Below are positions 9,601-63,531 of a stretch of 64,000 nt of DNA, piece after piece. Both the position numbers and the translations under genes were made by a program. Origin of the DNA: Astropecten irregularis (taxonomy: Eukaryota; Echinodermata; Asteroidea; Paxillosida; Astropectinidae); NCBI GenBank assembly GCA_963971285.1, contig OZ020265.1, positions 64,501 through 128,500 of the forward strand, written 5' to 3'. Under the pieces are notes generated by a model. That model worked only from the letters and a program-made list of their open reading frames with translations, ran no database searches and had not been told where the DNA came from. Positions within the stretch are counted from its first letter, which is position 1. Every line of letters begins with the position of its first letter.

Positions 9601-12600
9601 CCGGTTCTCCAAAGTCTCCTATTTGATTCAAAAGCAAAAATAGGAAGAATTTTGCAACAGCAAATTTGCAACTGTGCTCAAAATTCCAGAGGGAACCAAG
9701 ATGAGGAAAGAGGTCCTATAAGTTGGAGGGGACACACACCTTCACCCCTTGTACTGCATTATACATTAAGACTTGACTATGTTCAGCTACATGTATGTTA
9801 CCTTGGTGCCTCGGGTTGTTATGATTCTTGGCGGTGTTACATCTGGGATAATTCCATCTGATCTGAATACAGCATATGTCTCAGTATCATACCATGCACG
9901 GATGAATATGTGATATCTTACTCCACTTGTCAGCTTCTTATCTGAGAACAAGTGAATAAAAGTATATTAACGATAACTAAGATTGTATCAAATGGTTGAA
10001 ATAGGAAAGACTGACAGTAAGACAGATTGGCATACTGTATCATGAGATTTATCAAGTTTCCGCTCTGCGATCGAGAACATTTAGACATACAACTCTCAAC
10101 TCAATCGGACCTTGGGTTTGTTCATAATTGATGCGTGTAGTTTACCTCTTTAAGGCATTGTAACATGACACCTGATGACGTCATGATGAGATAAATATTC
10201 AGCACACATCTCCAACATAGGGACTTGTTAGGGCCTGTTTAAAAGTGACAAAAGTTGCACAGAGAATACTCCTGTGCAAAGTCTATGGGATTTTGAAGGA
10301 GAAGAAGAGGAAGCAGAAGAAAAAAAATCAAAACAAAATCGATACCTTTCCGTTGCACACGAAAAGCCAATTATTATCTAAAATGACTAGTAGTCTGCAG
10401 GTTTATTGCAATATAAGTAACTAGTTGTATACCTTCATCCAGCAAAATGACAGTGTGATGATCTTGTCCGACATCATACCATATCCTCTCAGTAACTGGA
10501 TCAAAGACGCCTGATGGTTCAATATCTGATGAGGAGTCATCACCAATACTCCATTCATACCTTAGCAAGAATCAACACAGGCAATTAATGGGTAACAGGT
10601 GGATTCATATGTGACAGGTGGAAAGTCAATCAATTATGCAGCCAATAATATCAGAGTATTTACCAACTGATACTTGTAATAGCAGGAAGAAGCCTTTATG
10701 TAATGAGTACAATGAATGCACCTGTTATTTCATGGATATTTGAAACTCACCATTTAATATCAAGACCCTTCTGCTCAATGACTCGCCATGCTGCTGCCAA
10801 CATGTACCGTGTGGGTGTATCATCAATATCAATTACTGTATTGATATCGTGAAATGTCAAGTCCAAAGTGTCCAGTACTTCTATTTCAGAGTTAGGATTG
10901 CCTGAAAAATAATGAGAAATAACAAAAGCAATATAAATGGAACAAATCACAACATGATAACTATGTTTGCTTGAATGTCTGCTCAATCACATGGCACTCA
11001 CATGATTACAGTGGCCTGGTGCACATGTTTGGTTAATAAGGGCGCATGACAGTCACATGTACTTACCTATAATTATATGATTACAGTGGCCTAGTGCACA
11101 TGTTTGGTTTATAATGGCACATGACAGTCACATGTACTTACCTGTAATTATATGATTACAGTGGCAAAGTGCACATGATTGGTCAATAAGGGCACATGAC
11201 AGTCACATGTACGTACCTGTAATTATATGATTACAGTGGCCTGGTGCACATGATTGGTCGATAGGAGCACATGCGCAATGGCCCTCGCATGTTGCAGATG
11301 AGCAGCGTCTCAGCAGGACAAGAGCGCCCTCATAAGGTGATGTGGGAGAGGTTTCAAATGTGGAATGATGACGACCACTTGATATTCCAACCTGAGACAA
11401 ATCAAATGATAAAAATCACAGAATTTTAAGTGAATGACTTTAGTCTGACACTTCAGACACTTTGGTCTGTTAACCTTTCTATGACTTCATATAATCTACA
11501 AGGAAAAGTCACTGGATGGAGGTTGCTGGTTCGAATCTCGCTCCAGTCAATTTTTCTTTATTCACTTTCAATGACTTAATCCAGTCAGTTTCCCTTGTGG
11601 TTTATTTGATGATTTCACTTGAAGTATGGTCAAAGGCAAAAGCAAGATTTGGCAAAAGGGGAGTTATTTAATTACAGGAGATCAGCAGCAAAGACCTGGC
11701 CAATTTCAAAGAGCTGCTTAAGCAAGAAAATTTGCCATAAGCACGAAAAACCTTGGTAGATAAAATCAGTATGCTGGCCAAAACTCCTTGTGAATGTTAT
11801 ACTCAGCAAACAATGGCCCAATACAAGTCAAAAGCAGTAAATATCACATGGAAATTTGGCTAGTAATCCTGTTTGATCAAGGAAAACTTTTCATGCTTAA
11901 GCAAATTTTGTGCTTAAGCAGCTCTATGAAATTGGCCCGTTACTTACTCCATTCACAGCCCAGATAGACACAAAGATATAGAGGTGGGCCGAGTCTGTTA
12001 TACTGCCCTCTAGTGGTACGATAGCTGTCTGTACAATGCCCTCATCAAGCACTATACTATCGTTATCATGGGTGATCCGGACTGGTCCACTCTATAAAGG
12101 GGAATCAAGACACAAACAAAAACATGAATCACTGGCAAATATTCTGACATAAAGCATGAAATAAAGTCTTTTCAGCTAAGATTTTCAAACAGACGAGAAG
12201 TTAGTAGGTGCGTTCAAGTAGGTCACCTAGGTTGCTCCGAGTCAGCCCCCATACTGTTGGATAAGGTCTGACGTCATTCTCAGAGTTCACCCAGGGCAGC
12301 CACCAGTGACCCTGCTCGTGAGCAGAGTCAGTGGTGGGAAACACGTCACACAAATTCAAGATGGCGGATTCAAGATAAGCGCTTGATTAGCCCGGCTGTG
12401 GGGGCTGATTCGGGTGACTTGACCCGTATTGACCGAGGGAAGCTACTCGAACACTCTTACTGAGAGTGGCAAACAGCCAGATGAAATGAAAGGGTTGTCT
12501 GTGTGTTGCTTCTTAGATTATATAAGATATTAAGTTCAAGCAAATGACACACAATTGGACAGAGATTAACAACCAAAAATAACTTCATAACAACAAGATA

Positions 12601-15600
12601 AGCATAGTATATGTACATTACCTTAGTGAGTTCAGATCCTCCAAAGGTAAATCCAACAGAGATAAAGTAATGACTGATACCAGAATGAACATCAGTAAAT
12701 CCCAACCAGGCTAAAGCTAAGGAACTAGTAGATGTGCTTGTATCTTCTAACCATGTCATCCAACCAGAGTGATAGCTTGGAGGTGATGGAGTAGTGTCTG
12801 GACTCACAGTGGTGATATTGGTGGAATTCATCCAGTCATCTTGCTTCATTGTTGAAGGAATAGACATGATATTAAAAACTCACAATATTGGAGTAACTTT
12901 GGTCGACAATCTCCCATTGAGCTGAGACAGTGGCAATGTAAATGCAATGAGCAATGCTTTGCAAATCAAACTCATATGACATAAATATTATTAAGATTGA
13001 AAAGTGAACAAATGAAAATTGACTGGAGCGGGATTCCAACCAGCAACCACCAGAATACCACTATACTGGCACTCTACCAACTGAGCTATCCAGCCCTATG
13101 TTGGCAGTGTCCCTGAAAGTCAATTATCTTTGTTGGTTTGGCAGTTAGAAGCCATGAAACCAATCACATACATACAGGATCATGGAAGATATGTTGCAGT
13201 ATTTATGCTGGCGGCAACCTGAGAAACAGTACATGGGGGGTCACTCAAAGAGGATGCGACTTTTTAATTAAGACTTACTGAGGAGGTTGTGCTATATTGC
13301 TGTTGTGTAGTATCGTCTAGTGCTAGATCAGTTGGTGTTATCCAGATGATGTCATGTCTTCCTAAGTTAGCTGCACTTTCTGTACTTACAGCAAACGTAC
13401 CAATAGATGGTGGACTACTATCAACCTGAGAAATCAAAGCACATTCACATTCACATGATATTACATTCAGAATGTTGCATTGCAAACACATGTGGCTCAG
13501 TATTCAGAATCTACCATAATATCACACACTTACAGTGTACCTAGCATGGCACTTACCAATAAAGAATATGTCATAGCTTAGCACTTACCAATAAGGAATC
13601 TGTCATAGCTTAGCACTTACTAATAAGGAATCTGTCTTAGCTTCAGTACACAGTCCAGCATAGTTACATGCAATCACAGTAATGATGTACTGACTACCAT
13701 CATGTAATTGCAGGTTAGTGAAGGTGTGATCTATCTCACTTCCAGCAATCTACAACAAAAATAACAACAAGAATTGCTTATAATCTCACACGGTGTGGAA
13801 TTGGTAGCAGGCATTCTTCATAGATTTTACGCTTACTCAGTAAGCACTGAAATTTGGTGCTTAGCACAGAATTGACATTGGGCCATGTACAGAATGTCTG
13901 TGCTATGTTTAAGTACATGAATTTTACCTTGATTGGTGGTATATCAACATCTCCATTGTGATGTGTAGTTATAGACACATACTGGTCTTTAATTCCACTC
14001 TCTGTATCCTTAAACAACCAGGAGAAGCGAAGAACATCGTGCAGAACCTGAACAACGTAATCAACCAAGAAAATGCAAACGTTTCAGATAATAGAGTGCA
14101 GTGGTCTGGAGTGTCGTACTCATGATCTGGTGGTAAATTTACAGATTGTGGGTTCGAATCCAGCCATGGGTTAATGGTGCTTGCATCCTTGGGCAAGACG
14201 CTTTATCGCATATTGTTTCTCTTCACCCAGGTGTAAATGGGTACCTGTGAGGGTAGAAATCGCTTTGTGCTTGATTAGCCCTTGTGCGATTTACAATAGC
14301 AGGCGCTGTATACTCCCCAGGGAGTTGAGATGTTTTCAGGAATGTTAATGGACCCGATGACCAAGGATAATAATAGCGTTGTGATACCACTCTTGTGCAA
14401 GAACGCTATATAAATGCCTAAATTATTATTATTATTACAAATACCAACCATCACAAACATTGCAATTAATACCAATGCTTTCTAATATCTTTCCCTGACA
14501 TTGAGTTACAACTTACCTGTGTGTTGTTAAGGACCATCCCAACTGTCCCATCAACAGCAGGTGCATGGACTACAACAGGTGGAGTTGAGTCTATACTGAA
14601 TCCATTAGATGTAGCTTCATTCCACATACCCAGTTGGTTATATGCACGTACAGTGATGTACACATTACTTCCTATGGGTAGTAGGTTTGATTCTGATAGG
14701 AATATCATAGCATCTTCTGATAGCTCAATGCGTGTGAATGGTAAGATGTCTCCAGCTGCTGGTCTAGTACCTGCACTCCACTCATAATAAGCAAGGCCAG
14801 AATGAGGATCATGGAAGCCCCACCAGTGAGCTGACAGTAGGGACCTTCAAGAAATGAAAATCACCAATTATCATCATGAATGTAGTTACATCACTGAAAG
14901 CAACAGGAATCTATATTACTATGACAGCTAATCAAAATACATGTACTTCCAAAGCAAGTAAAGAATTAAAATTATATGACCAATCTGTGAATTAAAGTGC
15001 TGATAATGATGAGGATATTATAGTTATTAGAAATATCAGACAACCAAACAATACTGAATTCAAACCTAATATTCTTGAACGCTCTAGAGTTAGGAGGGCC
15101 TGACGCTTTTCGATCCTAGCAGGATCTTTCTCAAAGGCTAAATGGCAAGGGAACAAGAACATTCAAGTAAAAGATGCACATTTTTCATTTAGCCTTTGAG
15201 AAAGATCTTGCTAGGATAGAAATGCATCAGGCCCTCCAAACTGTGACCAGCCTTTGAGAAAGATCCTGCTAGGATCGAAATGCGTCAGGCCCTCCTAACT
15301 CTGAGGAGCCTTTGAGAAAGATCCTGCTAGGATCCAAACATCAGGCCCTCATAACTCCAAGAAGCAGTTTCACATGATGTTATTAAAGTGCTTGATATGT
15401 ATGGAGTCTGTGAACTAAGACCTAATACGACAAAGCTCATATTTTTGTCAACAACTTTTCTGATGCCTATCAATTGTTTGCTTGATCCTCTTCTTAGAAT
15501 ATGCGGACTGCCATTCTGAATACTGGGTCATTTGGGCTGATGAGCAGTTTGCAGCAGTTTATGACTTGTATTGAAATATTCTTGAAGAAATATCATTCAT

Positions 15601-18600
15601 AGACTGATGACTAGATTAAGAATGAACAAACCTTGATGATTGGTAATTGATATCAGGACTACCAGGTGCACCATCATACACATGACCAGCCACTGGAGGT
15701 GAATCATCAATCATGACCCCATCAGAGGTCACTGAGGTACAAAGGTCAGCAGCATTACAGGATGTTACAGTCACATAGTAGGTCAAACCAGGCACAAGGT
15801 TCAAGTTGCCTGCAGAAACATCTGAAAGAGAAATGTGTTCACAAATGCAAGCAATTTGTAACTTCTGTTCCCAGTGAAAGTTGCCCAAATCTTTAAAACC
15901 TGGCCGGGGCCAATTTCATCGAGCTGCTTAAGCACCAACATTTGCTCAACACAAAAACCTTGGTAAATAATATCAGTATGCCAGCCAAAACTCCTTGTGA
16001 ATATAATGCTCAGCAAACAATGGCAGAATACAAGTCAAAAGCAGTAAATATCACTTGAAAATTTGTTTGTTAATCCTGTTTGATCAAGGAAGAATTTTCA
16101 TACTTAAGCAATTTTTGTGTTTAAGCAGCTCTATGAAATTGGTCCCTGGAACACACGATAGATCCTGGTAATATCAGTGCAGAATAAGATTGCGTTGTCA
16201 TTAGCAACTTACTTGTGTCCAATCCCACATGCTGCTCAGGTATGACATCACTACATCCTTTACAAATCCCAGCTTTCCAAGAATAACCAACGAGGGCGCT
16301 ATGCGGATCATGAAATCCTTCCCAGAATGCATTCAACATCCTCCGGTTGTCTTGAAAGTCTTGATCTCTGTGATTGGCTGGAGCTGTTGCTAGGTTACCA
16401 TCAAAGACATGACCAGCCAATGGGGGGCTTGCTTCAACTGTGAATGCGCCAAAACTCTTCAATGTAATCAGTCCAACATTGTTGACAGCCTTCAGAAAAG
16501 AATGATAAAAATTAACTGATTAATCAAAGACAACAAGCTACTACGGTATAAAGACAGATTCAGGATTACAAACCTGGCAGTACAGATCAATTTAGGAAAT
16601 CCTTCATTTAACATTTCCTTAAGGTAATATCATCATACTTTGGTTTTTGTCAAAGAAATGCAGATTCATGGGCACAAATATCAAGGAGGATACAGTAACA
16701 GTCATCTGTGAAATTTTCAGTCCCATACAGTGCCCACTTTTTGAGAAAACAGTGAAAAACAGCCATGGTATTTCTTAAGTGTTTTCTCTTTTATTTTTGA
16801 TCTTTTAAAAGATTTTCAATCGTTGCTTTACTAATTTCTGGATAAATACAGCATTTCAGGCGGACAAATTTTAACGGTATGTTTCTACCACCACCATCTT
16901 CATAATTAAGTTATACGTACATCTCAGTGTGAAAATTTCTGTTTTGGTTTCTTACCAAAGTATGATAGTACCTTTAAGGAAAGATCAAAACAAATTTGTG
17001 TCACTTCAATTGGAAAGTAAGAACATTAACCACCACAGCTTAGTAATATTAATAATTTACCACCTATTCATAAAACACTTGAAGTCTCACCTTGACAGAT
17101 ATGAAATATGAATGACCCTCTTGTAAGGTCAAAGGTCGTGAGGGGTCAGTGACCCCAGACTGTGAATTCTCTCTAGTGAAAGGCATGATGTCACCATGAC
17201 CAGGATGTGAACCAATACCCCACTCATAGTACGCAATACCACTCTCCTTGTCTGAAAATACATTCTCCCAGCTAAAGATAAGAAACAAGACGGACATTCA
17301 AATCATTAGTTACATCAATACAATCAATAGTCTGAAGTTGCTATTATCTGTGGTTAATTTGTTCATGTGATGTGCCCCATAATCTCATATCCAGGGGCCA
17401 ATTTCATAGAGCTGCTTAGCACAACAAACTTGCTAAGCATGATATGTCTGTCTTAATAAAAACAGGGTTAACAATCAAATGTCCATGTGTTGTGTATCAC
17501 TTGTGATTGTTCTTTGGCTGTTGTTCGTTAACCATGAATATCAAATAGAATTTTTAATGGTGATTTGTTTTATTGAGCAAAACATTTTTGTGCTAAGCAA
17601 ATTTTTGTGCTAAGCAGCTCTATGAAATTGGCCCCTGGATAGCAAGGGCTCTATGGTCCACAGAATCTGGATCAAAGATCAAGTCTCTGAGATCAACTAA
17701 AGATATTATGTAATCATCAAAATATCCAAAAGGGAAACTGACTGGTTAATTTTAAAAATTGACTGGAGAGGGATTCAAACCTGCTACCTCCGGAATACCG
17801 CACCAGCGCTCTTACCAACTGAGCAATCCAGACCTACGTTGGTGGTGTCACGAGATGATTGACTTTTAGGGACACCACCAACAGAGGGCTGGATAGCTCA
17901 GTTGGTAAGAGCGCTGATATGGTATTTAGGAGGTTGCTGGTTTGAATCCTGCTCCAGTCAATTATTCTTTGTTCACTTTACATTGATAAAGATATAAGAG
18001 TTAAATAGTCAATGCTAGCAGTAGATGAATACAATGTGAACACTCATTTGATCTAGTAGACATAATGTAAAACAACTACAACAAACATTTATCTATACGG
18101 AACATCTTCCTTGGCTCCCAAATTTTATGTATAATGTATAGGCTTGCTGAACATTGTTCACTATAATGAACGACCACTATAACAAACAATTGCCTTGCAT
18201 CCCAGCGTGTTCGTTATAGTGGCGGTTCACTAAACTGCAATCATTTAGCATCAGCATATCACATGGCTCAAATCTTACCACAGTTCCCACTATCAATATC
18301 AGTCACTGTAACATGTAGAGACAAAGCTTATTCATACCTTGCTGAGATAGATGTAGTAGATTGAATGAAACTGCCACCAATGGACAAAGTATGACCAGTA
18401 GTGACGATAGGAGGTGACGTATCTATGGTAACTGAATCTGACATCACTTCAGTAGACAGACCAACAAAGTCAGTACCTAATAGAAAGAAACTAAGACTAT
18501 TAATATATGATTATCAATGACTAATAGTTGTATCTATGGTAACTGAATCTGACATCACTTCAGCAGACAGATCAACAAAGTCAGTACCTAATAGAAAGAA

Positions 18601-21600
18601 ACTAAGACTATTAATATATGATTATTAATGACTAATAGTTGTATCTATGGTAACTGAATCTGACATCACTTCAGCGGACAGACCAACAAAGTCAGTACCT
18701 AATAGAAAGAAACTAAGACTATTAATATATGATTATTAATGACTAATAGTTGTATCTATGGTAACTGAATCTGACATCACTTCAGCAGACAGATCAACAA
18801 AGTCAGTACCTAATAGAAAGAAACTAAGACTATTAATATATGATTATTAATGACTAATAGTTGTATCTATGGTAACTGAATCTGCTTACAGAATATTTTC
18901 CACTAAGAGGCAAATTATTAACAAAACGATAGTCTCCAAATCTGTCTAATGTTCTATTGTCTTTAAGGTTTTTCATGAATCAACCTTACAGAGACGTAGT
19001 GAAACTCATTGTTTCAGGACTTGAATACAAGACTATGATGTTCTTACCTCTAATGGTAGCATAGTAAGTATGTCCATTCTGCAATCGTAGGTTGTGTATG
19101 ATGATATTATTGGTGATTCCAATCCTTGTGAATTCTTTCACATAATTTCCACCTCGCATAGAACCTGAAAAATACAAAAGGAAATATCATCAGATGTTTA
19201 AGGTCACTTTCAACTATGGCCTGGTAATTTCTTAGGAGAGAACATTTCATTTGAACATTATTCTATCATTAAAGGTACAGTACAGGATTGGTAAGGTGCC
19301 CAAACAGAAATGTTCACAGATTTACGTATAACTTTCAGGATATGAAGATTGTGCTGGTACAAACATACCGTTAAAATATTTCCACCTGAAATTGTGTATT
19401 TATCAAGAAATTAGTACAACAAAGACCGAAAACAGTTTTGATCTCTGGGTCAGATCAAAACCATTCTTTATGTTTTATAAAAAGAATTAAGTTGGGTTTT
19501 CGCTATTTTCTTGTGGCTCAAATTTTCACAGGTTTGTCATATCAAGTACATGTTTGATTAGACAAAGTGTGAGTGCTGTTCTGTGACCTTTACCAATCAT
19601 GTTTTATACATGTACCTTTAAAATGAATGATAAAGATTTTGGTTGATGCAAATATGCAAATAATGTTTACCTAATGAATATTCATAGTACTTGATGGCTG
19701 ATCGATGTCTTGTTAAACCGTGTTCCTCAACATCAATAAATGGATCCCAATGAAGCACTAACTCTGACGTAGAAGTCTGTCAACAGGAAAAATCAAAACA
19801 AATCAAAATCATTCACCAAGATGACATCATTCATTTATTGTACAATGTAAGAAAACATCCAAAATATCGATCTATATCAATTACCTCTATTCTTCAAATC
19901 AGTATTTGTCAAATCAACCTGCTAAGAAGCTATTATGAGTCTGTTACATTGTAAAAGCACATCTGTTCTTAGTTGTCAATCAAGCTCTAAGTTTGTGGAT
20001 CGGTTTGCGGAAACACCATGTTAGAATCGTTTGTACTTTCGCACTTCTATTTCGTTTGTCCTTCTTGTAAGGTCTCAAAGTTTCAACTAGCCTGCTCTAA
20101 TCATCATCAGGAGACCTGATTAAAGTAGGCTAGTCGAAATGTTGAGACCTTATGAGAAAGTGCGAACAAAATTGAAGAGCGAAAGTACGAATGATTCTTA
20201 CACTGTGTTTCCGCAAACCAATCCACATATCAATTGTCACCATGCAAAGCCTCAAATCTTTCTTGACCTTGAGTTAAATACTAAGCAGCATTTTGCATAG
20301 TGTCATTAACCATGCAAGTAGCACATTGCTCTTACAGGAATATATATTAATGGATTGCGATGTTTGAAGATTCAATTCACAACATAAGAAAGATTCTTTG
20401 CTCATTTTTCACTGACAATTCTTAGATTTACCTGATATGTTTGATGTTGGTTCCATCCGATCCATACAGAGCCAGGGGTCGGTGGGGTCGTATCTATGAC
20501 AACACCATCACTACAGCTGGACACAGAGGGCAGTGTTTGTTTCCATAGCTCATATTCCACAGTCACGTTGTCAGCGTGGATGCAAATACGATAACGCTTC
20601 CCATGTTCAAGAGACAAATCAGGAACATTCACAAACTCATTCTCTAAAAGGAAAGAATTGCAAATATTGTTAAATAATGTCGAAACATTAACCCTAACCC
20701 ACTTGCATACCACAACCTACCACACTAAGGTTTTTCCTGTGGTAAGTATGGTATCCTGCATACCACAATACACCATAGAGTGGTTGGTGTGGTAATGCAT
20801 GGTTTATGATCCAGTTCCCCTGTGGTAATGTGTGGTAAGCAGCTCTTGTCTTTTGTGATAGGTGCAATGGGTTAGGGTTAATATCCAGTTCCCCTGTGGA
20901 GACTGTGGTAATGTGTGGTAAGCAGCTCTTGTCTTGTGTGGTAGGTGCAGAGGGTTAGGGTTAACATCCAGTCCCCTGTGGAGACTGTGGTAATGTGTGG
21001 TAAGCAGCTCTTGTCTTGTGTGGTAGGTGCAGAGGGTTAGGGTTAATATTCAGTCCCCCTGTGGAGACTGTGGTAATGTGTGGTAAGCAGCTCTTGTCTT
21101 TTGTGATAGGTGCAGAGGGTTAGGGTTAATATCCAGTCCCCCTGTGGAGACTGGTAATGTGTGGTAAGCAGCTCTTGTCTTTTGTGATAGGTGCAGAGGG
21201 TTAGGGTTAATATCCAGTCCCCCTGTGGAGACTGGTAATGTGTGGTAAGCAGCTCTTGTCTTTTATGATCGGTGCAGAAAGTTAGGATTAATATCCAGTC
21301 CCCCTGTGGAGACTGGTAATGTGTGGTAAGCAGCTCTTGTCTAGGCCTGGGCGATTAACTCGATTAATCGATTAATCGCGATTACATTCCTGTGTCGATT
21401 ACTCGATTAGTAAATTCTGAACTACTCGATTAATCGTGTCAGCGCGATTAGTGCCTTCGAGTTGTGATTAATTCCATGAGTTACTACTATTCTCAGGAAA
21501 CGAAAGGTTGTCGGGACTTGTCGCACACATGAGTTATTGGAAACATACAGTTTAAACGTGTCGGGGTGAATTTGTATTCAAGCCTGACAGCTGACAACAA

Positions 21601-45424: not shown

Positions 45425-46163
45425 GATTTCAATGATTGTATGCAACGCCAGTTAACGCCTATACCTGTAAACAATCAAATGATGGAAATGAACATTATTA
45501 TCAAATACAGGGAAAAGGCTCCCCAAAAAATAATGTCCATGAGTTCGACGCTACGTACAGGAGCACGCAGCGGCGTATAGGGAAACGGCGCCCGGCCGGG
45601 GCAAGCGCTTAAATTGAACCCCTAAATCCAACCTCTGATGCCAATAAAAAAATCAAACAATTTAAATTGGAATCTTTCTTTCTTTGTTCATTAGATAAGA
45701 TTTCCCAAGAACTTCAATAGTACAGCTACTTTTTTTTTTTTTTTTTTTTTTTTTTGCGCCCCAAAAGAAGTGGCGCCGGGGCACCTGATTGATAATGTTT
45801 AAAGGTAATATCATACTTTGGTTTTTGTCAAAGAAATGCAGATTCATGGGCAAAGATATCAAGGTAGACACGAGGTAGGCAGTAATTTGTGAAAATTATA
45901 CGGTGACCCTCTTTTGAGAAAACAGCGAAAAAAAAACAGGCAGAAATCTTTGAACGATATGTTTCTACCATCACCATTTTTATACCCTGTAAGTTATAGG
46001 TAAATTTGTGAAAATGTCTGTTTCGGTATGCTACCAAAGTATGATACTACCTTTAAATCGACGATTTGTTTCTAATTGTCACATTTGACTGCTTACCACA
46101 TCCGGAGACTGCATTTTTCTTTACTGTGTTTTAAACTAAAATGAAAGTTGTTAAAGCACAAGT

Positions 46164-48880: not shown

Positions 48881-48884
48881 AAGT

Positions 48885-51330: not shown

Positions 51331-51332
51331 AC

Positions 51333-51835
51333 TATGGGCGTTTACGAAACGGAGGCTCGGGCTCCGTCTCAGGGTCTGGCTTCATTTTTCAAAATAGAGG
51401 CTTTCAGCAGCGGTTCGGAAGTAGATTCTCTGCCAGGCGCGGTTCTTGAGCCAACATTTATTTATTTTGTTTTTGGGGGGGGGGGGGGGGCTAGAAGATC
51501 CATTATTTTTTGGGGGGGCTAGAAGACCCAATATTTTGGGTTCTTCTAACATTCGCTTCTGCTATGTCTTATTAGGGGTCGAAAAACGTGCACATTATAG
51601 CCCACACAACCCTTTTTTAAATGTAATTGGCGCGTAATAACTGAAAAAATCTAGTATTTTCAAGAATGTTTTCACTTGCATTTTTCTGGGGGGGCTAGAC
51701 AAAATGTTTGGGGGGCTACAGCCCCCCCTAGCCCCCCGTAGAACCGCGCTTGTTCTCTGGTTTGAAAAGGAAAACAAAAAACACTATTTGCTTTTTCAAG
51801 CAAATGGATGGCTTTCGTAAACCTTGTATGTTCCT
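51333..51835. mobile_element. Nested pair of TIR elements
   Basis: The outer element is a copy of the family with GAGCCTGAGCC-type ends and GGTTCGGAAGTAGATTCTCT inside. It is split at about 51441 by an inner element of roughly 310 bases that begins CAGGCGCGGTTCT and ends AGAACCGCGCTTG. TTCTCTG is repeated on both sides of the insert, a probable 7-8 bp target duplication. The inner element has a long G run and CCCCCCTAGCCCCCC near its ends. Confidence 0.75.
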
Positions 51836-52362
51836 TTTTATATTGATTCGGTTGCTTCTATTTGTTTGTTTTGTTTGTTTGTTTGTATTTTTCGTTCTTG
51901 TTGATGTATTGTTCTGGGTATCATGGGTAGGCCCTTCTGTTTTTTGTAACTTTGATGTAAAACTTGGAGACGTGAATTTACGTTTCGATTAAAAGTTTGA
52001 AAGTGAATTTGCCCCGAGTGAGGTTTGAGTCAGCAGCCGTGTGGCAGAAATGAAAACATTTCTTCTTCTTCTTCTACTTGAAAGACTGTGAGATTAACTC
52101 GATGCTGACAAAAGATTCTAACTGGGGATAAAGTGTGCACAAATTAATTCGTTCTTTTGATATAGGCCTACTCCCCGATGCGTTTGATGAATGCATGTAG
52201 GCCCAATTTAAGTTCATTTTTGTTTGTATAAATTTTTTTTGCAGACTTTCCTTAAACCACAGAATAACGCACATTGTGTATTGAAGAGGACCGTGGTCTG
52301 CCAATGTGCCTGGCAGTATGGCCCATGGCCTACAGGCATACAGTGGTCATCAGTTTACTGTG

Positions 52363-54843
52363 ATGAAAGTCATCCTTATATTAGTCGCAGCAGGTTGGCT
52401 CAGTCCGGTATCAACCAGTTTCATCCGGTTCAAACCAGATACTGAGTATGTCTACACTTTCCGCTCATCAACAGATTTAAAGAATGTTCGAACATTACAA
52501 GCTGATGCAAAGGTAATCACAAATCGATATTCTTATTGATATTGTTAACCTTGTTTCTCCTGACAACTTACTAATCAAAAGTAAGTTACTACAGGGAAAT
52601 AATGTATGGTTTTCAAAATTAGTATGATATTCTTATTGTTTTCGGACATAAAGAAAATTGAAGCACTTGAGCTTTACTATATTATAGAGCTTAAACACAA
52701 CACTCAAGAAAGCGTCACATTATAAAATGTATCAGACCCAATAACCATAAGCAACCTGTAAATCCATGTCACAATCTCTATGGGTGTAGAATTTCATGTT
52801 CATGTGGCCAATGTATAATGTACGGGGCTTGTGAAAAGTGCCACGCGCTTCCGAAAATAGCAAGCGCGCGCGCGTGCAACCACAAGAAAGGGCGTCATTC
52901 ATTGGTGGACGTATTACGTACGCGCGCTAAAATTCCACCAATAGCGAGCGCCTGTTTGTAGGTTGCGCGTATCGATTTTGTCAGTCTTTTATTATTATAA
53001 AATGGATTCTGTAGGCCCCTACATACACTAAGAAGATTATTGTATCAGTAATGTTTAACGTTATGGGACAATAAATTGGCATGATTTGCTGTTTACATTG
53101 TTTTCATAGCATGGGGGATAATTTCATTTTATAGATCAAAAAAGTAGGGGGTATCCCATCTCCGCCCGAGATTACCCCGTAACCATTAAAGGCTAGGTAC
53201 AATCATAGCATACCGAATTGAAACAGAAATCTTTACAGATTTGGTGATGGTATAAACAGACCGTTAACAAACATTCTGCCTGAAATCTGTATTTATATCC
53301 AGAAAAGAGTAAAACCATTCACCCAGAACTATTTGGTCTTTTAAAGATAAAACATAACGATGAAAAGATTCTGAAAATACCGTGGGCGTTTTTCACTGTT
53401 TCTCAAAAACTGGGCACCACGCGTATGGGACTGGGAATTTCATAGACTGTTACTGTATCGTCCTTGATATTTCTGCCCATGAATCTGCATTTCTTTGAAA
53501 AAAAAAGTACGAGACGAGGAAGTGTTTTATGATTAATATAGAGATGGACGTGTAAAGTAAAGAAACTGCGGAAATGCTGACATTTTCGTTTCGTTTTGGG
53601 TTTTGTTTGTTTTGTTCAATGAAACCAGGCACTGTAAATGTCCCATGTATATTTTACTCTTTAGATTGGATTCGTGTTGGTGAAAAGAGCAAATGACAGC
53701 ACTCATGATCATCATCAACATATCTATTTCCGGGTTCATTCGGCTGGTATCTCAAGCGATGGACATCACGGTAAAAATAATTATAATCAACTGTGCTCAA
53801 CAACGAACCTAGCCACCGGACAAGTAAAGTAGGGAAGATGGCGTAGCCCAGGCTAACCCTTTTGTACTACTCGTCCAAACTTTCCAAATAATTCCATCAT
53901 AAAAATCAGTGGGGCTTTCGAATTATAATGCCATTGGCCTAATGTACACCATTTTGCTCTTTAACTTGTTGTATCACCTTTCTTTAAATAACTATTTCAA
54001 AAGCCATTCAAGTGGAGGGAGTGAAACTGCAATTCTTTAAATGGTACGGGCAATTATTTATGAGGAAAGAAAACACGCCGAGTGGAATCCTAAAAGATAA
54101 TTGTATATTTAGACTGAATAATTACACATGACATTACATGTACAGTACTATACGTGTTATTTTATGTAAGATTACTGAGTCGTCTACTTTCAAATTAACT
54201 CCGTGTGATTCTGAGATATCTCATACTTTGTTTCTCTTTCAGTTTTGTTAAGCGGAGAGAAGGATTTTAGCAAATGGTAAGATTTCTGTTCTGAAACTTT
54301 CAATATAATTATCTTGCTGTTTTTCTGTTTATAACAAGCATAATTATTACATCTCATTAATTCTTCCTGAAAATAGAAGCTAATTACGTAGAGATGCGGA
54401 ATGTTTATCGGTATGAATTTATTTATTCATACTTATTTATTATTTCGGTAGGTTTTCCTTCGACATCAACGCCAATGGGGCTATTGGTCAGGTGCAGTAC
54501 CCACGTGGCGAAGATGACCACGTGATATCGGCCAAAAAGGGTTTGGCCAGCCTATTGGCTGGTAATTTGCAGCACCCAAAAGGAAATCAGGTATGAACAC
54601 AAATTAAGCCAGTCACGGGCTATACAAGACCCTGACACTTGCGTTCACACCTGACCTATGCACTCAATTATTTCTCAGGTTGGTCCGAGTGGCTGGAATT
54701 ACGCGTGTAATGAAACTGGACATGAAGGATATCATGAAGCATCGTACACAGCGAGGATGAACCCTGGACGTGATGGTATCATTGTATTTACCAAGACTAG
54801 ACAAACTCATCCAATACCGTATGGCAAATCCAAACATCAAAAG
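52363..54843 (+). CDS. LLTP exons 1-5: signal peptide and N-terminal beta-barrel
   Basis: Exons 52363-52512, 53665-53770, 54243-54276, 54452-54590 and 54679-54843 (residues 1-198). The ATG at 52363 gives MKVILILVAAGWLSPVSTS, a good signal peptide; an upstream in-frame ATG at 52306 would bury it, so the later start is preferred. Then FIRFKPDTEYVYTF (first barrel strand), FVLVKRANDSTHDHHQHIYF (His-rich), FDINANGAIGQV, VISAKKGLASLLAGNL, and a Cys/His-containing stretch WNYACNETGHEGYHEASYT. Exon 3 is only 34 bases and is supported by phase 1 to 2 continuity. Confidence 0.85.
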
Positions 54844-57800
54844 GTACGAACAAATAATCCTCTGTGAAAAATGGGGGGAAATCACCTTATGGTCCAGTAA
54901 TTCTCTTTATCTCCACTTTCTACAGTCCACAATATTATTAAGTCATTGAAAAGTGACACGGAAAAAATGTTCACTGGCGCGATTCGAACCGGCGACCTCC
55001 CGAATACCGTACAGGCGCTCGTCTAGGGCTGGATAGCTCGATCAGTTGGAAGAGCCGCCGGAACGGTATTCCGGAGGTCGCTGGTTCGAATCCGCCGCTC
55101 CAGTGCATTTTTCTTTGCTCACTATTCAACGACTTATAATTATAATCCAATCAGTTTCCCTTGTACCGTTATTTGATGATGTCGCAATAAAAAGTTAGAT
55201 CGAGTTTCATGTTTCGTTTTGTATTACTTTTTTTAGGAGATTCACTTTCATCCAGGTTTGCGTGTACCAACTAAAATCAAGACAACGGATCATTTTGACG
55301 CGCCCAGGGAATCGACACCAGGGTAGGACTGTCTTCTTTCAACTTGCTTCGTCTTCCAAGAAGATTATTGCTCTTCCAATAAAATTATTCAGTTGGAAGA
55401 AGATTATTGAAACTGAAACCGTAGAGTTTGAAGCCCGCCACCATAGACTTCTGTGTTATTTGCGACCGCAGCCGCCGCAGCCAAAGATTCTATATTACGC
55501 CCTCTATTGTTGAAAATTAGAAAACGTAAAAATATTAGTCTGGTTCTCTTGTTGTCTTTGCAACAATTGTTTACATAACACGTGATACGTCTGGGTGAAA
55601 ACCATTAGCGGCAAAACATGAAAAGAACGTTCTGAAAGTGAACTTCGTGGAACTAGAATCGGAACTTATTTAGCGAAAATGTTGTATTTCTGCGGCTTCT
55701 TGATGGCAAATTCTGCGAAAAGATGCAAGAACTTGACTTGGGATGAATTATGTTACACATCGAAAACAGAGACAATGTTGCTGTACAGAAGTAGGCGGCA
55801 TTTTTCCGGTTTTGGTTTTGGCCAAAAAAGTACGTACACGCACTACAACTACAAGTAACGCTACACTCAGTTTGACAGATGCCGTACCTTGACAGTGTCA
55901 ATGACACTTGATGGAGGTAGGCTAAGTTATAGGTTTCAGGTCAACTCGGTCCGTAACCAACTCGGTCCGAGTCAACTCGGTCCGTGACCAACTCGGTCCG
56001 TATCCAACTCGGTCCATGACCAACTCGGTCCGTAACCAACTCGGTCCGAGGCCAACTCGGTCCGCAACCAACTCGGTCCGTGACCAACTCGGTCCGTGAC
56101 CAACTCGGTCCCTATGGGAAAATGCACGCAAAAACGTCTGGTAATTTTGTTGCAGCAAAACGAGTACGTAGTCTCGCAAATTGCGTGAATTTAACTATTT
56201 ATTTCGGTCTATTTATTCATTTATTCATTTATTATCTTAAAAGCATTAAAAGAATGAAAAATACATTGGCAGGTGCTGCCCAGCCCAGGGCCTGACAAAA
56301 AGTAAAAAAAACAACAAAAAAAACCCTGTCATCAAAAGCCGTGCCTTCCAAAACACCTGCCAATTATAAATCTTATATTAAATTATGTTATATGTATATA
56401 CACAGATTAATTAAAACAAAGCTAAAAAATAAAAAACAAAAACACAAAACAATCATCATTATTATTCATTAATTGATTTATTAATTTTTAACATAAAAAG
56501 CACGTTTTCATAAGGCATTTGACTTCGTGTATAATTTAATTAATATTTTAATTAAAATTGTATTGTGCCATTTTATCAAATTATTATGGTATCAACATAA
56601 TAAGACATAATTTATTTCTTCTCGGTTTCAGCCACAAGCAAAACATATTATGTTATGATGACATTAAAAAACATTAATGCAAGTAGCCTACATGTTGTAC
56701 ACTGCTGCTGCAAACTGCATGGATTCTTGTTTGAGTACGTTTTCCCATAGGGACCGAGTTGGTCACGGACCGAGTTGGTTACGGACCGAGTTGGTCACGG
56801 ACCGAGTTGGCCTCGGACCGAGTTGGCCACGGACCGAGTTGGTTACGGACCGAGTTGGCTTCGGACCGAGTTGGTCTCGGACCGAGTTGGTCACGGACCG
56901 AGTTGACTCGGACCGAGTTGGTTACGGACCGAGTTGACTGGCACCCAAGTTATATCTTAATACGTTCTAAGTAAAAGTATAATAATTGACTAAACTTAGC
57001 GAACAGATAATTGATATAAATCATGAAATGCATACATGATGGAATGGAAGAGTAGAGGAATGGTTAGCATAACATTACAAAGTTAATTGCCGTAAGTTTG
57101 TAACATTTTGAGTAATTTTGCCCGTTTTGATTGTGAAATTTGTGGTCAGTTGCAGTGAGTTGGCTTCATCTCTGTGGACACTCTCAGTCTGAGTCGCTGT
57201 GAATTGTTAATGAAGAGTAATTAGTTTGGCCGAGAGTCTGCATGAAGACAATTTTTTACAAAGATTTTTCTTTTTTTCCTGCCACAGATTTAAGCATGCA
57301 GTCAATGAGAATGAAGGAGATAATATCGGTAAATATAATTATATCAACACTCAACAGTCATTAATGCATAGCCGGCCATTTCGTCGTTTAGGATTAATTT
57401 TGAAACAATAAAGCAAATTATGTCATTATGATTTATCACAACCCCATTGTACGTATGGTCAAACGCATCATTGCATTGTAACATATAGTTTTTGAGAACA
57501 TTTTTTTTTCTTTTTTTTTCTTGTGCAAGTTTCTGTTATAGAGTCACACATACTGACCAGTGACTGATCTGTCATATTGAGGAATAATACTATTCATTTA
57601 AGTTGACAACATTTCCTCAACAGAATATCCTGAGATGCAGACTTTTTCAGAAGGGCAGCTGACGTTTATCCATGAGGCTTACTACCCATCACCTACTGGC
57701 CCATCTGAGAATGATGATGTCATTACTGATTCAATACAAATGAAGGTTAGAACTCACATAGCAAAAAGTGTTTATGACAGGTTCATACTTCCTGTGAATA

Positions 57801-60800
57801 GTGCTGCGCACTTGCGCTAAAAATAGCACCGAACCTCAGACAAACATTGCAAGTGGCCATGCAAACGTGTGGTGAGTGGGGGTATGTGCATGCATGGTAT
57901 GATCTCATTAGTGCCGAACGCTATTACCGGTACATGTAGTTTTACGATGCATGATGTTAATGATGCAACAACTAATACGCACTGTTTTACATGATACATG
58001 TATATTGTGATGCCAGATAATTTGCTTCACTTTGTAAGGTAGCATGAAGTACATTTAAACCGGGCTTGGGAAGAAACCATCACTTGTGTAAAATTTGTAT
58101 TGGAATGACAAAAGGCGTTTTGAAAAAATAGCTGCCGCTTCATTCAAAGTGTATCATTGTAGGTCAAAACACCCCATAAAACTCACTTTTCAGATATGCC
58201 ACCCCAGTGTTACAGCAGAGATTGAAGTTCATTTATGACTTGTATCCAGTAATTAATCTCTCTGTTTTGAATTTGATTTGATTTATTTAGATTCCAGATA
58301 GGAAGCTTCACTTGAATGTGTCCGTGTTGAAGGATTTCATCGTTGGAAACCTGACCTGTATGAGGACAACACCACTAAGAGGTGATTCCTTCATATCTTT
58401 TCTTCTGTTGTCTTGCCAAGTTGCCTCTTGAAGAATGACATGAAGACATGCCGTCCAGACAGAAGATTTCTGATAATATTTTTGTCTTGTTCATGTTTTT
58501 ATCATTATTAGGCAGCCATAAGCGTTCACATTGTTTCCAAGATCTAGTAGAAGCACTGCGCTCTGTGACTGATGATCAACTCGGTGAGATTGTGACTCCA
58601 TACTACAAACCACCACTGTCCAGGTACTTTAATATATGTTTAAATGGCAACTTAAAAGTACTTGAAAGTTGCCCTGTGCAATTAGTCTGTAATTTCAAAG
58701 GCATGAAAGATGGGGGCACAAAGGCAGTGGCCAGGGGCACCAAGGCAATGACCAGGGGCACCAATGCTATGGCTAGGGGCACCAAGTCTAAATTTCCTGC
58801 CCAAGATGATGATCAATAATTACTTGTTTTGTTGAATATGCTTACAGCAGTATAACGATATTATTTCTTTTGTCTCTAGACGTTATCGTGACAAGCAGAA
58901 TAGACTGAACATGTTGGATGCTGTAGCTGCCATGCATAATGATATCTCACAATCTCTACTTGCTGATCTCATTCTACTATCCCCAATACCAAACAAGGAG
59001 CTTGTGGAAAGACTACTCATTGCATCAGTTGGATTCAAACATACCATTTCAGAGGTACGTTAGTCTTGTTCTCAAGGTGTTATTGCATTTTTATTGTATT
59101 TGACGCCTCACTTTGAAAGTTTGAATGTTTTAAGATATCCTTAAAACCCTTTCTCCATTTTGGTCAGGGGTCGATTTCACCAAACTCTTCGTAACTTACT
59201 ATCAATTGTAGGACTTTTGATGCATTGAAGCCCTACGTGAGATATGCCCACTACAATGGGTTATCCTTCTTAATTCGACTTACGATCGATCGTAGGGCTT
59301 CGTGAAATCGACCCCTGGATTGCTAGTTAAGTTTAGAAATCATAATATGAAAATAGCTTAATTGTTAATTGTTTCACGGCAATGAAATATCTTGTTTTGA
59401 ATTGCAGCACTTTGTAGAGACTGTTGAAGACATTGTCTTTCATCCAGGTCAATATCCAGGTAAGTTCCCTGATTCATCAAGTCAAATTGATTTAATAATG
59501 ACCAATCATATTTGAGACTACAGAATTACCAAATGAAAAAGAAATAAACTAATCATTATTATGTGTGATTCAATTTGTTTAAGCTGCTCTAAACGACCGT
59601 GAGATTCAGAGAGTGGCTGTGCTGGTACTCGGCGCTTTAGCTGGTAACCTATGGAGTACCGGTCATCAACATGAGGCTGAGCAGATTGTTGCAAAGATTG
59701 AAGATAAGCTTGGAGTACATGGTAAGCCTATTGCAGAATTTGTGTATTAACTCAATGTGTTCACAAGGTATCTAGTTGTATCGATAGTCTATGTGATAGA
59801 TGCACTCACCGTACAGTGAGCCAGCATCTATCATATGCACGCAAATTTCCTGATTAATTATGCAAGCCAACCCAGCACTGACCTCTAGGTTTTGACCAAT
59901 CAGGGGGCACGGTGAGTGCATCGATCATGTAGATAGCTGCTGCTGCAGGAATGCGCGGAATTGACCAATCAACATCCTCCGCCATGATCCAGACGGAAAT
60001 GTTCTCAAAACAGATCTGATTGGCTGATGTGCCGCGTTGCATAGTATTTGCATGCACGCATGTATCAGACGTTCGTACGTAGTGACACGGAGTAGAACGG
60101 GTGAGACTCAGACTATTGTATGGATAGAGTTCTGAGTTAGAGTTACTTGTACTATTGCAGTGTGTTTTTATTGACATAGCCTGATATTGTAGTCTTGTTA
60201 CTGTATGCACTCTACCAGACCCATGGGCATATGACAAGACCCTGTCATCACTGACTGATGATGAGAAGGATGAACATCACCATGATACAGTAGCATGGAT
60301 TGAAGCTCTAGGCAATGCTGGACTACATCGATCATTCCCTCATATTCACAGTTACTGTATTCACTCTACCACCAGACCCATGGGCATATGACAAGACTCT
60401 AGCATCACTGACTGATGATGAGAAGGATGAATATATCACCATGATACAGTGTCATGGATTGAAGCTCTAGGCAATGCTGGATTACATCGATCATTCCCTC
60501 ATATTCACAGTTACTGTATTCACTCTACCACCAGACCCATGGGCATATGACAAGACTCTAGCATCACTGACTAATGATGAGAAGGATGAATATATCACCA
60601 TGATACAGTGTCATGGATTGAAGCTCTAGGCAATGCTGGATTACATCGATCATTCCCTCATATTCACAGTTACTGTATGCACTCTACCAGACCCATGGGC
60701 ATATGACAAGACTCTAGCATCACTGACTAATGATGAGAAGGATGAATATATCACCATGATACAGTGTCATGGATTGAAGCTCTAGGCAATGCTGGATTAC

Positions 60801-63531
60801 ATCGATCATTCCCTCATATTCACAGTTACTGTATTCACTCTACCACCAGACCCATGGGCATATGACAAGACTCTAGCATCACTGACTGATGATGAGAAGG
60901 ATGAGCATCACCATGATACAGTAGCATGGATTGAAGCTCTAGGCAATGCTGGATTACATCGATCATTCCCTCATATTCACAGTTATACCAATGCTAGTAG
61001 TACTCATCCATTGCTGAAGAGAGCTGGTCTACATTCTATGAGGGATTACCATCATGATGAGGTATGTCATCCTATTTATACACCAACCATTATTGCTGCC
61101 AAATTTGTTGAATTTGTTTTACTCTTTTCAAGACAAAGAGAGTCTAACAATCTGAAAGATACAAACAAGTTTCTAAGAAGTGGCTTTCATTAGCATCATG
61201 AAGGCTGCCTTGGTTGATGCATTCCTGATGTCACCAACAAACTGTACATGTAGACTGTCTTGATTGGAGTTAGGTTGGTGTGATGTGTTTCGATCCTAGC
61301 AGGATCTTTATCGAAGGCTAAATGACAAGATAGAGGACAAGAACATGCAAGAACATGGACGAACCCCTCCCCTTTGTCCTGATCCTCTCATCCATTTATG
61401 TGTATCTTTATATGCATGTTCTTGTCCTCATGTCATTTAGCCTTCAATAAAGATCCTGCAAGGATATCGGATCGAAACATCATGCTCTCCTAACTCCAAG
61501 CATTTTATAAATGTCAGGTCATTATTTTGGCTGATGAACAGTTTGCAGCAGTTTATTACTTGTAGACTTTCCCATTGGAGTCTAGTAGCAGTTAGTTGGA
61601 TGACATCTGAAGAAAGAACAACATCTAAAGCGATCTACATCTTCATATGTCTCATAAAGACCGAGGTGGACAGTTGTACAGTGTGGTCTATTGAGTCAAT
61701 TTGAGGTTATAGATTATTTCATCATCCTTTCTGTAATGTTCCTTTCCATTCACAGGCTGCCGGCATTCTACTGAAATCAGCTTTAGATGAAGATGAAGAT
61801 GATAACGTCCGCTATGAAGCATCTTTGTTCTACAAGAATCATCCTTATGGTGGAATCCATAATGTGTCCAAGTTGATCAATCTTGAGGAGTGAGTATATA
61901 ATGACATCATTGAGTGACAGTCAGTGCATCGCATACTGGAATGTTTCAATTGCTTCTAGTTTATACACACGTTAACCCAGGGATCACAGTGTCATTGAAG
62001 ACATGGAGTTCCTCAGAATCACAACTCAAACTTATGTTTTTACGCAATAATTTTACATGAAAGTCATACCTTTGATAACCTAAGTATGAAGATAGCATTT
62101 TATTCTTTTCGAATCTAAAACCTTGGCAGACCACGATCCTGCTTTAATATACTGTTTAGGCAGAGTGATTGAGACATCCTTATTAGTCATACCATAATAC
62201 GCATGCACAAATTCCTTACAAATCTGTGAAGGTAGCTCTTGAAAGAAGAAATTGTCTGTTTCCAAAAATGCTGATTCCATTTGCTGCTTACAGTAACCAC
62301 AGCCATGATGTACATTTAGATAAGATACATTCTTGCTATTGTTTGTTACAGTTATGCTACATCCAATACAACGTATGATGTAAGCACTGATGTAGTCAGT
62401 GTGCCATCTAGACATCGTGTACGTCGTGGATTCTGGGATGGTCTGGAGTTCAAGCTAGCTTCTCCCTCTTATTACTGGAAGAAGTCCATCGGTAGTTCAG
62501 CGACAGGAGCAGAATTTGGCCTGACCATCCGAAATGAACTGGATTTGAAGATAGGTAGGGATAAACGTACATCACATGGTACTGTTTTTCAGTTAGATCT
62601 TGCTCAAAGTATACCAATTCCGTAGGAAAATGATATGTGTATTGTTGCAACCAGAAGTTTTTACTTTACAAACTTTGAACATGCTCTGACTATTTGTAAA
62701 TGAAAGAATATCACTTTTGGACACAGTGAAGCTTTTAAAAAGAGCTGCAAATTTGAACTTAATACACTATAAATCAATATACTCTGGCCATCTTTATATG
62801 AAAGAAAATCACTTTAAAACTTGGAGAAAGTTCTATAAATACCCAGAGGTTGAAACTTGTCATTCTAGTGAGTTTACTCAAGGTGTACTAAAAGGTTATC
62901 TGTTCTGTAACCTGCAGAATTGAATGATAAACCTATTTGTGATTGACTTGTTTTCTTGTTGTCTTGCATACATGTAGCTCCACTAAGTGGTCATCTGCGT
63001 GTGGATTTGTTAGATGAAGCATATGCCACTGTCATTGTTGGTATGATCGGACAGAAATATGACGTTGCTCGAGCTCGCTTCTGCTTTGGTGGTCATGTAG
63101 ACTACAACCTCAACATATTTCAGGTGAGTTTGTAGAATAAATCATTCATAAAAATGTTCATCCATTACAAACTGTGTTATCGTCTGGCAGTGTTGCATGT
63201 ATATTTTAGTAATGAATGATTATTTGCAGTGCAAAGTATTGAAAAAAACTAGTAATTACTATTTCTTCCATATGCAGCATATGGAGCTAATTGTTCTACA
63301 AAAGTTTTCTCTGTATAACCTTTATTTTTGAATTATTATCAAAATCAGGAGTTTGGAGTTGAGCGCATCAGTGACTTTGCCAAGATTTATGATCTCATCG
63401 TTGGTAAAGTCGTTGGTAACATCAGAAGAGCAGTAGACATCGTGGTTGGTCTCTTCAATGGTGATATCAACATCAATCAACTGTTTCATAACTTTGTTGA
63501 AGCATTGGAGACCATTCCTGAACGAATCATT
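52363..63531 (+). CDS. Large lipid transfer protein (vitellogenin/apolipophorin-like), 18 exons, 3' partial
   Basis: Seen: 18 exons with GT-AG borders and matching phases, 2,289 coding bases (763 residues), continuing past the right edge. Known: proteins of this superfamily (vitellogenin, apolipophorin, apoB, MTP) carry an N-terminal lipid-transfer module made of a beta-barrel, an alpha-helical horseshoe and beta-sheets that bind lipid. Matching features: signal peptide, FxPxTEYVYTF start, VISAKKGLASLLAGNLQ (cf. the N-x-K-R-G-x-x-S-x-L-Q-x-N-L motif), an alpha-helical part with LDAVAAMHND, VLGALAGNL and WIEALGNAGL. A dibasic R-V-R-R at residues 608-611 could be a furin site, as in insect apolipophorins and vitellogenins. 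Which family member it is cannot be decided because the C-terminal part (vWD domain or not) lies outside. It would act as a secreted lipid carrier. Confidence 0.88.
54965..55115. mobile_element. Second inverted pair of tRNA-like SINEs
   Basis: GCGATTCGAACCGGCGACCT in minus orientation, then GGCTGGATAGCTCGATCAGT and GGTTCGAATCCGCC in plus orientation, almost touching. Same family as 17760-17965. Lies in LLTP intron 5. Confidence 0.8.
55237..58381 (+). CDS. LLTP exons 6-9: barrel end and linker
   Basis: Exons 55237-55322, 57288-57328, 57624-57745 and 58291-58381 (residues 199-312). Exon 6: EIHFHPGLRVPTKIK..DHFD; its donor was placed at GG|GTAGGA because only this keeps exon 7 open as FKHAVNENEGDNIG. 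Exon 8: FSEGQLTFIHEAYYPSPT. Exon 9: LHLNVSVLKDFIVGNLTCMR. Intron 6 (about 2 kb) holds an inverted SINE-free segment with a foldback-type element at 55922-56945. Confidence 0.8.
55922..56945. mobile_element. Foldback (TU-like) element with tandem-repeat arms
   Basis: Left arm 55930-56115 is a tandem 16-bp repeat (CCAACTCGGTCCGTGA); right arm 56750-56940 is the same repeat inverted (GGACCGAGTTGGTCAC). Between the arms are inverted ..CCTATGGGAAAA.. sequences and an AT-rich core. Known: sea-urchin TU elements and Drosophila FB elements have inverted arms built of short tandem repeats. Lies in LLTP intron 6. Confidence 0.8.
58512..61889 (+). CDS. LLTP exons 10-15: alpha-helical lipid-transfer region
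   Basis: Exons 58512-58623, 58880-59054, 59408-59459, 59584-59721, 60850-61061 and 61756-61889 (residues 312-586). Helical-repeat features: DLVEALRSVTDDQLGEIV, RLNMLDAVAAMHNDISQSLL, VERLLIASVGFKHTISEHF, AVLVLGALAGNLW, VAWIEALGNAGLHRSF and GILLKSALDEDEDDNVRYEA. These follow the pattern of the vitellogenin helical horseshoe. Exon 14 is the fifth and only complete copy of a sequence repeated at 60219, 60376, 60535 and 60691; it alone continues in frame to a GTATGT donor. Confidence 0.85.
58712..58785 (+). repeat. Short array of the same 21-bp unit in LLTP intron 10
   Basis: Three to four diverged copies of the GGGGCACCAAGGCAATGACCA unit lie just downstream of exon 10. It is the same sequence family as 41255-41640, 17 kb away, in the other gene. 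Confidence 0.85.
60185..61000 (+). repeat. Five tandem copies of LLTP exon 14 (156-159 bp)
   Basis: Acceptor CTACCAG|ACCCATGGGCA or its CCACCAG variant occurs at 60219, 60376, 60535, 60691 and 60850. Copies 1 and 5 read GATGA(A/G)CATCACCATGAT and stay in the exon frame; copies 2-4 read GATGAATATATCACC and later AGTGTCATGG, which shift the frame. Only copy 5 continues to a donor, so copies 1-4 are taken as intronic duplicates. Confidence 0.92.
61260..61505. repeat. Copy of the same family in LLTP intron 14
   Basis: GTTTCGATCCTAGCAGGATC, CTTTATCGAAGGCTAAATGA, then the inverted half ending TCATGCTCTCCTAACTCC. It shows the minimal form: one unit in each orientation around a spacer. Confidence 0.85.
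62352..63531 (+). CDS. LLTP exons 16-18: dibasic site and start of the lipid-binding sheets
   Basis: Exons 62352-62554, 62978-63123 and 63349-63531 (residues 586-763). Exon 16 has VPSRHRVRRGFWDGLEFKLA; the R-V-R-R at 608-611 fits R-x-[KR]-R. It continues IGSSATGAEFGLTIRNELDL. Exon 17: LRVDLLDEAYATVIVGMIGQ and FCFGGHVDYNLNIFQ. Exon 18 is helical: FGVERISDFAKIYDLIVGKV and VVGLFNGDININQLFHNFVE. The donor after exon 18 (ATT|GTAAGT) is clear; the next exon lies beyond the window. Confidence 0.83.

Follow-up and report, generated by a model that had tools for sequence, protein, structure and literature searches.

Tandem arrays spanning exon-intron borders in two neighbouring genes of the sea star Astropecten irregularis

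In a stretch of 64,000 nucleotides of the Astropecten irregularis genome (contig OZ020265.1, hereafter the window), nine exons carry a duplication that contains their own splice junction. All nine had been proposed in an earlier note on this DNA, and a combination of TRF, self-comparison and copy alignments finds each of them roughly where it had been placed (Table 1). Eight are tandem arrays and one, at exon 19, is a spaced two-copy duplication; they contain splice borders of the gene models, namely five donors (exons 6, 17, 19, 37 and 41) and four acceptors (exons 18, 23, 31 and the plus-gene exon). In the copy alignments, every junction unit holds exon and intron sequence together. Junction-spanning arrays have already been described in amphioxus, where they are called mirages, and by their sequence the sea-star cases can be classed as the same kind. 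The arrays are probably, at about two chances in three, intragenic minisatellites that were founded at microhomologies and are tolerated because exon definition ignores the intron-side copies, with some excess at junctions left unexplained.

Table 1. Junction-spanning duplications, the further array counted with them, and the host genes (positions in the window).
Feature	Position	Strand	Description	Basis
Exon 6 donor array	40049..41121	-	54-bp unit, ~20 copies; exon 6 end 41097	TRF, copies
Exon 17 donor array	31633..32008	-	irregular unit of ~70-105 bp; exon end 31993	TRF, self-comparison, exon-edge copy
Exon 18 acceptor array	30722..31484	-	150-bp unit, 5 copies; exon start 30847	TRF, self-comparison, copies
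Exon 19 donor duplication	29984..30226	-	one extra copy; exon end 30146	self-comparison, copies
Exon 23 acceptor array	26702..27736	-	121-143 bp unit, 7-8 copies; exon start 26792	TRF, self-comparison, copies
Exon 31 acceptor array	18419..18884	-	111-bp unit, 4.2 copies, 98% matches; exon start 18476	TRF, self-comparison, copies
Exon 37 donor array	13542..13643	-	32-bp unit, 3.2 copies; exon end 13621	TRF, copies
Exon 41 donor array	11002..11273	-	75-bp unit, 3.6 copies; exon end 11217	TRF, self-comparison, copies
Vitellogenin-domain gene acceptor array	60197..60985	+	154-160 bp unit, 5 copies; coding exon 60850-61061	TRF, self-comparison, copies
Intron 27 array, the only one of the ten counted that lacks a junction	20820..23203	-	unit 67-83 bp	TRF, self-comparison
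Minus-strand gene	94..45424	-	54 exons in the window; runs past its low end	exon chain with consensus borders
Vitellogenin-domain (large lipid transfer) gene	52245..63531	+	17 exons modelled; continues beyond the window	

TRF and the self-comparison were both run blind to exon positions. The self-comparison returned 19 regions, eight of which contain a junction and correspond to eight of the nine cases; it missed the 32-bp array at exon 37, which was caught by TRF. TRF missed exon 19, and its row at exon 17 ends at 31960 and does not reach the last base of the exon, which the self-comparison passes (continuing to 32005). When all 138 pairs of an exon and its flanking intron were aligned and compared with shuffles, seven of the nine cases stood out clearly (z 13-68) and exon 37 was weak (z 4.4), while exon 17 is absent among the 24 of the 138 pairs listed. 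Further pairs in this test are exon 50 with its upstream side (z 4.4) and two plus-gene pairs (z 3.8 and 3.7). The unit at exon 6 consists of 25 nt of exon and a GTAAGT donor, followed by intron sequence; the GT is present in 17 of 20 near-identical copies in a row, of which the exon-abutting one alone fits the protein. The array at exon 17 holds only about 14 exonic bases. At exon 19, the extra copy is offset by 142 bp, made up of 101 homologous bp (95% identical) and 41 non-homologous bp. An insertion of some 830 bp (21343-22172) divides the intron 27 array into two parts.

The two host genes are neighbours and are unrelated to each other. The minus-strand model, an exon chain with consensus splice borders, yields 3352 aa without a stop. 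Its product is presumably a large secreted protein, the start of which we take to resemble an EMI/EGF-like motif, and it appears to carry fibronectin-III-like repeats. Fibronectin type-III domain-containing protein is among the names under which its relatives are recorded, and a Pfam scan of residues 1-1096 returned nothing at E <= 1e-3. The 22 proteins listed as relatives include 14 sea-star sequences (six from Acanthaster, six from Patiria and two from Asterias) with 62-70% identity over 80-100% coverage; beyond sea stars, the list continues with a brittle star (41%), an abalone (34%) and weaker matches. In a quick tree, the protein of the window branches outside the whole set of 14 sea-star sequences, and support at the excluding fork is modest (SH-aLRT 85). 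By these relatives the host is a sea star, probably of none of the three genera, and amphioxus, to which the literature parallels had pointed, is rejected as the source by both relatives and tree. The fibronectin-III-like gene forms a multi-copy family in sea stars, and in Patiria three of its paralogs and the vitellogenin-domain protein are recorded on contigs of equal length, which suggests that the linkage of the two genes is conserved. In the plus-strand gene, exons 6-17 of the model share an open frame, and the model lacks an exon between exons 5 and 6. The array that had been assigned to exon 14 of this lipid-transfer gene is borne out and lies at the 13th exon of the present model. The product contains a Pfam Vitellogenin_N domain (E=5.6e-11) and shares 68% identity with the Patiria miniata protein P0001 over 96% of 536 aa.

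The proteins of relatives carry a single copy wherever an array exon is covered. The minus-strand product can be aligned colinearly with 15 relatives, some of them incomplete and 14 from sea stars; none of the 15 contains an insertion of at least 5 residues that matches an array unit, and none has such an insertion at exon 6. The array exon of the plus gene is likewise present as one copy in the Patiria relative. In the alignment of protein sequences, the exons flanking the array-bearing introns are colinear with the relatives' proteins. Some predicted Acanthaster proteins offer leads of their own: in paralog P0004 most of exon 29 is duplicated in tandem (33 aa), P0010 and P0012 are longer by seven residues at the border of exons 19 and 20, which is the site of the extra copy in the window, and P0015 has an 8-aa tandem-like insertion within exon 18, an array exon in the window.

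Minisatellite-like duplications of intron/exon boundaries were reported in amphioxus globin genes (PMC3087553) under the name mirage, first given to such repeats in Adh3 (Canestro 2002, as cited there). In the excerpted text of that paper, mirage units measure 150-160 bp in the globins and 10-72 bp in Adh3, the arrays differ in length between alleles, and splicing is apparently undisturbed. Excerpts of a further paper (PMC3902484) add mirages in PGBD5 (60 and 108 bp) and troponin C, and argue that one amphioxus gene annotation contains mirage copies as false exons; the mirages in the excerpts of both papers are confined to cephalochordates. Like these mirages, the sea-star tandem units carry sequence from both sides of an exon-intron border, and both 5' and 3' borders are duplicated. 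Many, not all, copies keep their AG or GT in the amphioxus units of 10-160 bp as excerpted, and 42 of the 46 decoys, the additional copies of a splice site, keep theirs in the sea star. The sea-star cases differ in that the host belongs to another phylum and that nine of them sit in two adjacent genes. For the excerpted amphioxus mirages, instability in length and in somatic tissue is described together with undisturbed splicing; the sea-star arrays come from the sequence of one haplotype. No echinoderm case of junction-spanning arrays was found among the open-access literature matches listed (titles and abstract starts), and the excerpts of PMC2206037 and PMC3045353 contain no report of such arrays.

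To count the junctions that random placement would capture, the arrays were collapsed to one copy and one unit of each was given a random position within the gene spans. The main count comprises ten arrays with a unit of at least 25 bp; five arrays that belong to a dispersed element of 56-bp units were left out as carried in by it, and TRF rows with a unit below 25 bp and a 28-bp, 1.9-copy row at 51484, which lies between the genes, also fall outside. A junction lies inside nine of the ten arrays compared with 2.78 expected (P(>=9) 3.8e-5); the expectation is 3.11 when wholly exonic placements are excluded from the null (P 1.2e-4). Without the two-copy exon 19 case, eight of nine arrays remain (P 9.4e-5, and 2.7e-4 with wholly exonic placements excluded). 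If the five dispersed arrays are taken as misses, P becomes 2.1e-3, or 6.1e-3 with that exclusion, and if three short-unit arrays are added to the misses, the two values are 3.6e-3 and 1.1e-2. Dispersed repeats, recognized as repeats seen elsewhere in the window, occupy 10,873 of the 35,274 intron bases of the minus gene; their removal from the null raises the expectation to 4.16 (P 1.6e-3, or 5.5e-3 with the split intron 27 array counted twice). Introns were also shrunk in the null to mimic insertions later than the arrays. At 75, 50, 35 and 25% of intron length, P is 8.7e-4, 1.0e-2, 6.2e-2 and 0.23 with the dispersed arrays left out, and at 25% nine captures are unremarkable beside the 7.5 expected; if those five arrays are scored as misses, the values are 3.2e-2, 0.20, 0.55 and 0.88. 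All of these P values are optimistic because the window was chosen for showing the pattern.

The earlier note had argued that arrays should rarely include a junction. This premise is wrong, because exons fill 27% of the minus gene once its arrays are collapsed, and 106 junctions fall within 37.6 kb; the capture chance per unit is 9-41% before any bias, and chance alone would put a junction inside 2.8-4.2 of the ten arrays. What stands of that interpretation is a nominal excess over random placement, while its rarity premise fails and, as set out below, both of its proposed causes are left unsupported. The excess is suggestive and is no proof, coming from a window picked for the pattern. Plain chance does not comfortably yield nine of ten (P 3.8e-5 to 1.6e-3), which counts against the explanation that we prefer.

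The structure of the units bears on their origin. Calculated from the coordinates, the exonic share of a unit averages 61% (range 14-86%), and its comparison with a uniform distribution gives a KS p of 0.17, at low power (n=9). Duplications starting at exon borders, one of the causes put forward previously, are thus unsupported: the junction position is scattered within the units, donors and acceptors are both affected, and the apparent founding ends at exon 6 are interior. The RNA-templated variant of this idea, with spliced RNA as the source, is excluded, because each unit contains intron sequence and mature mRNA was therefore not the template. At exon 6, the intronic portion of the unit resembles an upstream segment of the exon: 22 of 27 aligned bases agree, 12 of them in one run (no shuffle test). 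On its intron side, the array terminates at TGTTACC, which is also present in exon 6. The sequence strongly suggests that the founding event at exon 6, the only array at which the ends were traced, had microhomology ends, one inside the exon and one inside the intron. The founding duplication would have arisen between the two TGTTACC copies, and an internal deletion afterwards would have produced the 54-bp unit.

In the explanation that we prefer, a tandem duplication arising locally, with short direct repeats at its joint, would take in an exon border by chance, and the unit would then be multiplied by a copying mechanism that we infer to be unequal exchange or slippage. The exon-abutting copy would remain the working splice site because it alone is joined to the remaining exon, and therefore it alone yields the conserved protein. 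Exon definition pairs splice sites that enclose a short, intact exon. It would presumably select the exon-abutting copy as the one enclosing the shortest exon and ignore the intron-side copies. Selection would purge duplications lying wholly within exons, whereas those spanning a junction would be as harmless as intronic ones, so that a large share of the visible arrays would lie at junctions. The observations in favour of this explanation are the anatomy of the arrays, the absence of detectable constraint on the decoy signals, the stops that nearly all read-through decoys would introduce upon use, and the single copy in relatives' proteins that cover an array exon; the capture chance set by junction density and the microhomology suggested at exon 6 also speak for it.

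A mutational process that favours exon-intron borders, for instance through chromatin, nucleosome or R-loop features, would instead generate more junction-spanning duplications than intronic ones. Such a process would account for the excess of captured junctions and for the occurrence of the pattern in two unrelated genes and, in the excerpted amphioxus papers, in several genes there. The breakpoints, however, lie away from the borders, and the apparent founding ends at exon 6 are in the interiors of exon and intron. The excess itself comes from one window selected for the pattern, and P is only 2e-3 to 1.1e-2 with dispersed and short arrays as misses, and 0.03-0.20 with dispersed arrays as misses and introns at 75-50% of their length. 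We therefore consider a border-favouring process unlikely. The broader proposal that sea stars and cephalochordates share a process which preferentially duplicates exon-intron borders, as a widespread deuterostome route to intron growth and spare splice sites, is speculative, and we regard it as rather improbable.

The other cause named in the earlier note, selection that maintains the arrays for useful spare splice sites, be it for splicing robustness or for regulated alternative exons, fits with the GT or AG left intact in most decoys and with the signals at exons 17, 19, 31 and 37, which are invariant among the few copies of each. The first three decoys of exon 6 (40934-41097) would also add 54, 108 and 162 nt to the exon without a stop or a change of frame, so that their use would insert 18-residue repeats. 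The signal columns are nevertheless more variable (41 of 531 cells, 7.7%) than the exon parts (108 of 2545, 4.2%) and intron parts (32 of 919, 3.5%) of the units, in a count for which one of the three exon 17 decoys was too short. The signal exceeds the rest of the unit in variability at exons 41, 23 and 6 and in the plus-gene array, is slightly less variable at exon 18, and owes some of its variation to worn edge copies at exons 41 and 23. The observed value falls at the 95th percentile of a circular-shift null with a mean of 4.3% (P(null <= observed) 0.95); across all arrays there is no sign of extra conservation of the decoy signals over the rest of the unit, although a weak effect is possible. 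Reading through the decoys adds at least one in-frame stop in 38 of the 41 covered (three decoys of exon 6, one of exon 23 and one of exon 41 were omitted), and the relatives' proteins show no matching insertion at exon 6. Retention of spare sites by selection is thus unsupported and seems very improbable. Assembly artefacts, in the form of collapsed or expanded repeats, appear more improbable still: the copy number of such arrays is hard to assemble, and one amphioxus globin mirage is aberrant in the draft assembly according to the excerpted PMC3087553, but identity to the exon-abutting copy ranges here from 73 to 100%, and the copies combine distinct indels with variants that they share, beyond what assembly error makes, and the nine loci differ in unit and sequence. 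The first four copies at exon 6 are identical, and exact copy numbers could still be wrong.

Two coding interpretations were rejected. The 54-bp array at exon 6 is not taken as coding, as its later copies contain stops and frame shifts and the extra residues are absent from relatives. Unit lengths divisible by three (54, 75, 111 and 150) do not point to coding selection, as all 25 decoys read through outside exon 6 add stops.

In the AGGT model, duplication of a proto-splice AGGT creates an intron. The excerpts of PMC4974935 and PMC3443670 deal with introns gained when a tandem genomic duplication copies splice signals. Splice signals are copied in both situations, whereas the sea-star arrays appear to lengthen existing introns and no new intron was seen. 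Ordinary intronic VNTRs or minisatellites are alike in having tandem, partly homogenised copies; the sea-star unit differs by including exon sequence and a working splice site. The nine cases in two neighbouring genes suggest that the mirage pattern extends beyond cephalochordates, and annotated sea-star genomes could directly test whether duplications favour splice borders. The arrays are natural tests of exon definition, as exemplified by the row of GT donors at exon 6, and gene finders may turn mirage copies into false exons.

Other repeats occur in the window. The dispersed element of 56-bp tandem units is found at 2706-3107, 4024-4340, 15191-15365, 23677-23845 and 30389-30563, with similar pieces near 33800-33920 and 61280-61500; it comprises inverted pieces across a short spacer and resembles a foldback-type transposon. 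Between exons 5 and 6 of the plus-gene model, two 16-bp arrays with reverse-complement units (55938-56115 and 56748-56939) flank about 630 bp. A 21-bp repeat (GGGGCACCAAGGCAATGACCA-like) is common to introns of both genes, at 41255-41653 and 58713-58786.
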